Shown: positions 39,796-41,490 of the stretch, piece by piece
Numbering within the stretch: the stretch's first letter is position 1
Layout of the letters: each line of letters starts with the position of its first letter
NCBI GenBank assembly: GCA_013042375.1
Contig: JABDQH010000094.1
Location: 19,573-83,572, forward strand
Origin: Woeseiaceae bacterium
Lineage (GTDB): Bacteria > Pseudomonadota > Gammaproteobacteria > Steroidobacterales > Woeseiaceae
Length of the DNA stretch: 64,000 bases
Direction of reading: 5' to 3'
The notes under the pieces: generated by a model
Told to the model about the DNA's origin: nothing
Seen by the model: the letters and a program-made list of their open reading frames with translations, nothing else
The model's database searches: none
Position numbers and translations under genes: made by a program

Positions 39796-40691
39796 CGGGG
39801 CACGCGAGTTCGTCGATTGGCGCGCTCGGCCGGATCGCGCGCCATCCGCTGTCGAGCTTCATGATTATCCTCGTGATCGCCGTGACGCTGGCACTGCCGG
39901 CCGCGATCAACCTCGTCGTCAAAAATGCACGCACTCTGAGCGCCGGGTGGGACAACGCGCTGGACTTTGCCGTGTTCCTGAAGCTAACCGTCGCCGAAGA
40001 CGAGGCCGCGGCGCTGGGCCGGCTCCTCGAACAGCGCGCCGACATCGATGCGGTTCAGTTCGTCTCGTCGACGCAAGCGCTCATCGATTTTCGCGAGCAG
40101 TCGGGGTTCGGCGCGGCGCTCGACCAGCTGCCCGACAACCCGCTGCCCCACACACTCGTCGTGCGGCCGGGCCCCGGCAATACGAGCGCGTCGCTCGTGC
40201 TCTTGCAGGAAGAACTCGCCAACCTCCCCGAGGCAGAGTACGTACAGGTCGACACGGAGTGGGTGCAGCGATTCCACGCGATCCTCGACATCGTTCGCCA
40301 GGCGATTGCGATCGGCGCCGCGCTGCTCGGCATCGCGATAGTCGTCATCATCGGCAACACGATACGTCTCGACATCGAGAACCGCCGCGAGGAAATCGAG
40401 GTGACGAAACTCATCGGCGCCAGCAATGCATTCGTGCGGCGGCCCTTTCTTTGGTCCGGCTTCTGGTACGGATTGCTCGGTGGCCTGCTGGCGCTCGGGC
40501 TGGTCTGGTACGGGCTGTACCTGCTGGGAGGACCCGTCGCGCGACTCGCCGGGCTTTACCAGGGTAACGTCAGTATCACGTCGATGAGCCTCGTCGAGGC
40601 GGCAGCGGTCGTCGCCATCGGCGTCGTACTCGGGCTCGCCGGATCCTGGCTCACGACGGCCCGGCATATGCGCCGCATCGAACCGCGCTAA
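39780..40691 (+). CDS. ftsX: Cell-division membrane protein FtsX
   Basis: 303 residues from ATG 39780 (MAAWLTGHASSSIGAL); the track's upstream part is a shadow of ftsE. Four membrane helices (about 28-48, 175-195, 227-250, 275-295) and one periplasmic loop (about 50-165) for binding EnvC-type activators. NTIRLDIENRREEIEVTKLIGAS is the family signature. Confidence 0.95.
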   Translation: MAAWLTGHASSSIGALGRIARHPLSSFMIILVIAVTLALPAAINLVVKNARTLSAGWDNALDFAVFLKLTVAEDEAAALGRLLEQRADIDAVQFVSSTQALIDFREQSGFGAALDQLPDNPLPHTLVVRPGPGNTSASLVLLQEELANLPEAEYVQVDTEWVQRFHAILDIVRQAIAIGAALLGIAIVVIIGNTIRLDIENRREEIEVTKLIGASNAFVRRPFLWSGFWYGLLGGLLALGLVWYGLYLLGGPVARLAGLYQGNVSITSMSLVEAAAVVAIGVVLGLAGSWLTTARHMRRIEPR

Positions 40692-41281
40692 GCCACTCGG
40701 CTGCGCAACCCGTTCAGCACCCCGTCGACGATCGCATCGAGGCTGGCGCGATCGGGCCGGCTCTTGCACATGACGCGCAGGCCCCACAGGTTGTTGAGGA
40801 CGAAAGATGCGAGCTGGTTGGCATCGCGCGCCGTGTGAATGTCGCCCTCGGCCTGGGCGTCCTTGACGAGCCATACGAACGCCTTGCGCAGCTGAGCATT
40901 GTAGGCGCGTAGCTTATCCGCTATCTCGTCATCGTGCGTCGACAGCTCGAGTAACGCATTGACGGTCAGGCAGCCGCGCTCGGCTCGCCCGGCGGCGGCG
41001 TCGTCGACGATCTGGCGCAGGAGGCCCTCCACCTTGTGGATGGAACGGCCCGGCGCATCGCGCAGTCCGTTGACCCGGGCAATGAAGCGCCGGTTGTAGC
41101 GGTCGATGACCTCGACGAACAGGCCTTTCTTGTTGCCGAAGGCCGCGTACAGGCTGCCGGGCTGCAGCCCGGTCGCCGAAACGAGGTCGCCGATCGAGGT
41201 CTTGCCATAGCCGCGGTCCCAGAAGACCGCCGTCGCCTCGGCAATCACGGCGTCGCGATCGTATTCAGCATGTCGTGCCAT
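40688..41281 (-). CDS. TetR/AcrR-family transcriptional repressor
   Basis: 197 residues. The HTH is TSIGDLVSATGLQPGSLYAAFGNKKGLF (about 28-55), and the ligand domain includes GCLTVNALLEL. Two near-identical 16-base palindromes lie just upstream, so it is autoregulated. The divergent neighbour is rpoH, about 200 bases away, but no efflux or redox gene is adjacent on its side, so the ligand is unknown. The 3' end overlaps ftsX. Confidence 0.9.
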   Translation of the reverse strand: MARHAEYDRDAVIAEATAVFWDRGYGKTSIGDLVSATGLQPGSLYAAFGNKKGLFVEVIDRYNRRFIARVNGLRDAPGRSIHKVEGLLRQIVDDAAAGRAERGCLTVNALLELSTHDDEIADKLRAYNAQLRKAFVWLVKDAQAEGDIHTARDANQLASFVLNNLWGLRVMCKSRPDRASLDAIVDGVLNGLRSRVA

Positions 41282-41344: not shown

Positions 41345-41433
41345 GAAAGAAGCGGCAGTTGCGCGATGTTCGGCCGCCGGCCGACGCCGCCAGGCCGCGC
41401 GAGGGGCCTGTCCTGAGGAACTTGCACAACGCG

Positions 41434-41460
41434 TTAGCACTCCACATACGCGAGTGCTAA
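41434..41460 (+). promoter_or_regulatory. CIRCE element (HrcA operator) in the rpoH leader
   Basis: TTAGCACTC-N9-GAGTGCTAA is a perfect CIRCE inverted repeat, 30 bases before the rpoH ATG. HrcA binding here would repress rpoH at normal temperature and release it when GroEL is titrated by unfolded protein. A possible -35 TTGCAC lies at 41422-41427; the -10 would fall inside the element. Confidence 0.93.
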
Positions 41461-41490
41461 GATTTGGAACCAGTTTTGAGGAGGGAGTAG

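Follow-up and report, generated by a model that had tools for sequence, protein, structure and literature searches.

In the E. coli paradigm of the heat-shock response, chaperone feedback acts on the sigma-32 protein. Sigma-E was found in E. coli through the rpoH promoter rpoHP3, which carries the RpoE -35 box GGAACTT (PMC8103513) and has been used as a reporter (PMC2215328). The repressor HrcA and its operator CIRCE are absent from this organism, and a control search with PF01628 (hrcA) gave no match in any E. coli genome. Elsewhere HrcA has been connected to the chaperonin, its binding in C. jejuni being enhanced by GroE (PMC8533110). A CIRCE in front of rpoH is already known as a prediction for Geobacter sulfurreducens (Rodionov et al. 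2004, PMC545781, Table 8), where a perfect CIRCE lies at -51 before rpoH and the genome also has hrcA and a CIRCE at groESL. That case is predicted, as is ours; it differs in phylum, in the CIRCE that hrcA-grpE-dnaKJ also carries and, as far as the paper's description of the site goes, in that no sigma-E or housekeeping promoter is mentioned there (PMC545781). A literature search of limited reach returned no description of a gammaproteobacterial rpoH CIRCE or of sigma-E or housekeeping promoters overlapping with it, and the promoter overlay described here and its breadth look new.

The locus analyzed here lies in a 64,000-nt stretch of DNA from an uncultured member of the Woeseiaceae, referred to as the window. 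With E. coli rpoHP3, by which sigma-E drives sigma-32, it shares the RpoE-type -35 box before rpoH (PMC8103513, PMC2215328), and it differs by the HrcA operator that covers the -10 position. With the groESL promoters it shares operator and repressor, as well as the combination of an alternative-sigma promoter with HrcA.

The putative operator, rpoH and the HrcA system of the genome

The operator in the window reads TTAGCACTC-CACATACGC-GAGTGCTAA (in full TTAGCACTCCACATACGCGAGTGCTAA) and shows no mismatch to the consensus TTAGCACTC-N9-GAGTGCTAA. Thirty nucleotides separate its end from the start codon of a 287-aa ORF that was identified as RpoH (TIGR02392, 401 bits at a cut-off of 323; NF005143, 422 bits), so that the earlier note on this DNA was right about both the perfect CIRCE and its position (Table 1). 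A chance palindrome could be rejected, given that the site is the sole match in the window at up to 3 mismatches and only 0.01 matches were expected. We likewise rejected an assignment to a divergent TetR-type neighbor, as a TetR-type gene lies beside rpoH in only four other genus-mates and the CIRCE in all. Judged by RpoH, the nearest named relatives are Woeseiaceae MAGs. Upstream of rpoH lie ftsE and ftsX, the latter named because it follows ftsE and is conserved in relatives. Between ftsX and rpoH the window contains the TetR-type regulator gene (40688-41281, minus strand), which it has in common with L115, L116, L117 and L139; the other genus-mates examined have ftsX directly 5' of rpoH. 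Second RpoH-like matches occur in three genus-mates (G015:C25:25860-26690, G048:C12:4972-5805 and G025:C56:9145-9705), two with 53-54% identity and the third a partial match of 87%.

Table 1. Elements around the rpoH start in the window
Feature	Coordinates	Strand	Remarks
CIRCE, putative HrcA operator	41434..41460	.	perfect arms, 9-nt spacer; kept before rpoH in relatives
GGAACTT, sigma-E-type -35 box	41417..41423	+	10 nt before CIRCE (GGAAC + 12 nt)
TCCAC, sigma-E-type -10 position	41441..41445	+	imperfect; most relatives TCyAA
TGCTAAGAT, extended -10-like element	41455..41463	+	CIRCE right arm + GAT
rpoH, sigma-32, 287 aa	41491..42354	+	TIGR02392, NF005143

The source genome is a MAG of 2.76 Mb in 120 contigs (84% complete). 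It contains hrcA as an open frame (PF01628, 220 bits), followed by frames that read by eye as grpE and dnaK. The search of the assembled genome recovered no CIRCE at hrcA-grpE-dnaK; as read from L003, grpE is preceded by CTTGAAA-N13-CCCCAC and dnaK by CTTGAAA-N13-CCCCACTT, elements that look like sigma-32 promoters. The one other CIRCE in the assembly, with 1 mismatch, lies before groES, directly after CTTGAAA...CCTATCA. Since only these two loci bear a CIRCE in the assembled genome, groESL and rpoH are the candidate targets of HrcA. The genome also encodes rpoE (TIGR02939, above cut-off) and, directly after it, frames resembling RseA and RseB.

Distribution of the rpoH operator and its coupling to hrcA

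A CIRCE match was found in 96 of 99 relatives, usually two in each. Among these matches 31 loci were fetched and assigned by tblastn, which placed 20 at rpoH and 10 at groES, the rpoH and groES loci of the source genome itself being additional. Within the genus the operator precedes rpoH in all 49 other genomes examined (L115-L163), in 48 of them within 3 mismatches. The remaining one, L126, carries a natural spacing variant with an 8-nt spacer, TTAGCACTC-GAAGAAAA-GAGTGCTAA. Named carriers before rpoH include Steroidobacteraceae, Dyella, Luteibacter, Alcanivorax, Thioalkalivibrio, Thiohalobacter, Competibacteraceae, Halieaceae and Kangiellaceae, of which Dyella, Luteibacter, Alcanivorax and Thioalkalivibrio are cultured genera; among the named genomes it is absent from Aeromonas, Halomonas, Idiomarina, Alteromonadaceae, Colwellia and Endozoicomonas. 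In the sample of the class a strict pattern recovered the rpoH CIRCE in at least 50 of 274 genomes and 44 of 221 genera, which are lower bounds, and there was no match outside the Gammaproteobacteria in a phylum sample of 299 genomes. Mapped onto the RpoH tree, the trait requires 7 changes versus 27.7 in shuffles. The earlier note had claimed that HrcA controls rpoH, and had named a genome without hrcA or close relatives without the site as grounds for abandoning the claim; hrcA is present and the site is kept in every genus-mate examined, across the order and in many further Gammaproteobacteria, and the claim is thus supported.

The presence of the site is also connected to that of the repressor. 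All three genomes of family f12 of the same order (G071, G084 and G095, 94-95% complete) lack both a CIRCE and a match to hrcA, which is the pattern of a joint loss. In the class sample, counted without regard to kinship, the rpoH CIRCE was commoner among good genomes with hrcA (34/175) than among those without (2/60). A CIRCE in the absence of an hrcA match was seen in five genomes (G191, G232, G063, G072 and G050), perhaps owing to assembly gaps. In the Lysobacteraceae the arms before rpoH have changed symmetrically to TTAGCAGTC-N9-GACTGCTAA, with the palindrome kept; this variant was observed in L058, L074, L080, L082 and L111. The second site of G373, TTGGCAGTC-N9-GACTGCTAA, and the half-changed second site of G372 were both assumed to lie at groES. 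The Lysobacteraceae variant suggests a shifted specificity of HrcA.

Promoter-like elements overlapping the operator

Comparison of 152 distinct rpoH sites with 25 groES sites, counts that take in related genomes so that p values would exaggerate their independence, revealed elements specific for rpoH on both sides of the operator and in its spacer. The end of a GAAC lies 10-12 nt before the CIRCE in 129 of the rpoH sites and in 2 of the groES sites, the second and third spacer positions are AA in 108 versus 1, and NAT directly follows the right arm in 121 versus none. The groES operators instead follow a TTGAAA/TTGACT-type promoter with a CTATTA-like end, of which the first box is found in 25/25 and which appears to be sigma-32-like. 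The contrast holds in the class sample, which consists mostly of one genome per genus (GAAC 31/44, NAT 30/44).

GGAAC(TT), placed 11-12 nt upstream of the CIRCE, together with TCyAA at the left arm resembles a sigma-E promoter such as rpoHP3 of E. coli. In most sites 16 or 17 nt separate GGAACTT from the TC (18 or 19 when counted from GAAC), and GAAC is kept in 49 of the 50 distinct sites of the genus. The signal in the spacer is one-sided, with TAA in 68 sites and its mirror image TTA in 3, something a symmetric operator would not need. Sigma-E-like matches precede rpoH in 47 of 66 cases with a CIRCE (1.0 in shuffles) and in 22 of 33 without (0.6 in shuffles). A search for a sigma-E motif before rpoE, intended as a local reference, yielded none in 23 loci of the genus, and a genome search with GGAACTT-N16/17-TCYAA, intended to outline a sigma-E regulon, yielded one site only. 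In three reduced genus-mates of 1.4-1.5 Mb (G004, G011 and G050, 88-90% complete) there was no match to rpoE. Of these, G004 and G011 have kept GGAACTT...TAA.

At the other end of the operator, the right arm plus NAT forms TGCTAANAT, which fits the extended -10 form TGnTAnnnT and would be used by a housekeeping sigma factor; the T at the third place after the arm is found in 144/152 rpoH sites. In the window the -35 box is present, and the -10 position, TCCAC, departs from the TCnAA of most relatives. For that reason the housekeeping-type element may be more important than the sigma-E-type one in this organism.

HrcA as a probable gate on sigma-32 synthesis

We consider it likely that HrcA represses the transcription of rpoH by covering the -10 elements of both the sigma-E-type and the housekeeping-type promoter, and that sigma-32 synthesis is in this way subject to a feedback linked to GroEL. 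Bound to the CIRCE, HrcA would cover the TCnnA at the left arm that belongs to the upstream GGAACTT, and at the same time the overlapping extended -10 at the right arm, so that rpoH would be held down at permissive temperature. Once GroEL is occupied by unfolded protein, or HrcA is inactivated by heat, repression would be lifted and rpoH transcribed. Sigma-32 would then raise GroESL, whose own promoter also sits under a CIRCE, and the rising GroESL would restore HrcA and close the loop. The coupling to GroEL in this model is drawn from the biology of HrcA in other species. Evidence that counts against the model comes from the imperfect TCCAC of the window, from the five genomes with a CIRCE but no hrcA match, and from G004 and G011 with sigma-E-type elements but no match to rpoE. 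The contrast with E. coli put forward in the earlier note stands as far as the added HrcA input is concerned; chaperone control of sigma-32 need not be absent, considering that the QRKLFFNLR segment is intact in the window RpoH.

It may be asked whether the sigma-E-type element still counts in the window organism. HrcA could act there essentially via the housekeeping promoter, with GGAACTT/TCnnA as the decayed remnant of a sigma-E promoter that now has little effect, a reading that would fit the imperfect TCCAC next to an intact TGCTAAGAT. It would also fit G050, which has no match to rpoE or hrcA and where GGAACTT and TAA are gone and the CIRCE and TAAAAT have stayed. Nevertheless, we regard it as unlikely: the window has an intact GGAACTT even though the stretch just upstream shows no conservation with relatives, GAAC is nearly invariant in the genus, and a strict sigma-70 scan, which asks for a recognizable -35 and a consensus score, called no promoter on the rpoH strand.

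Another idea is that the CIRCE is a relic, bound by HrcA weakly or not at all, with rpoH controlled as in E. coli. The genomes that keep the site in the absence of a detected hrcA could be taken in its favor. However, the arms are near-perfect over deep divergence (the right exact in 133 and the left in 126 of the 152 distinct sites), the CIRCE disappears together with hrcA in family f12 and the changes in the Lysobacteraceae are symmetric and palindromic, which makes a relic quite improbable. That the repeat works in the rpoH mRNA, as a hairpin or RNA thermometer, is scarcely credible. A CIRCE transcribed as a whole can form a hairpin, but both putative promoters would start transcription within or after the repeat. 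Moreover, a check for an E. coli-type rpoH thermometer, by general folding and not by a dedicated model, gave no Rfam match and a fold of leader and early coding region no better than shuffles (z = -0.49).

Repression by HrcA at both -10 elements hence remains our preferred reading for the window. Its extension to the class is put forward more tentatively, our own opinion being almost evenly divided: in many Gammaproteobacteria a single 27-bp HrcA operator may provide both the sigma-E -10 and the housekeeping extended -10, forming a three-input node at which chaperonin status gates the envelope-stress-driven as well as the basal synthesis of sigma-32, and the arrangement in E. coli may be what remained after the loss of hrcA. 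If HrcA indeed gates the transcription of rpoH, many Gammaproteobacteria would possess a second, transcriptional chaperonin feedback, and the sigma-32, sigma-E and HrcA systems would be joined at one site.
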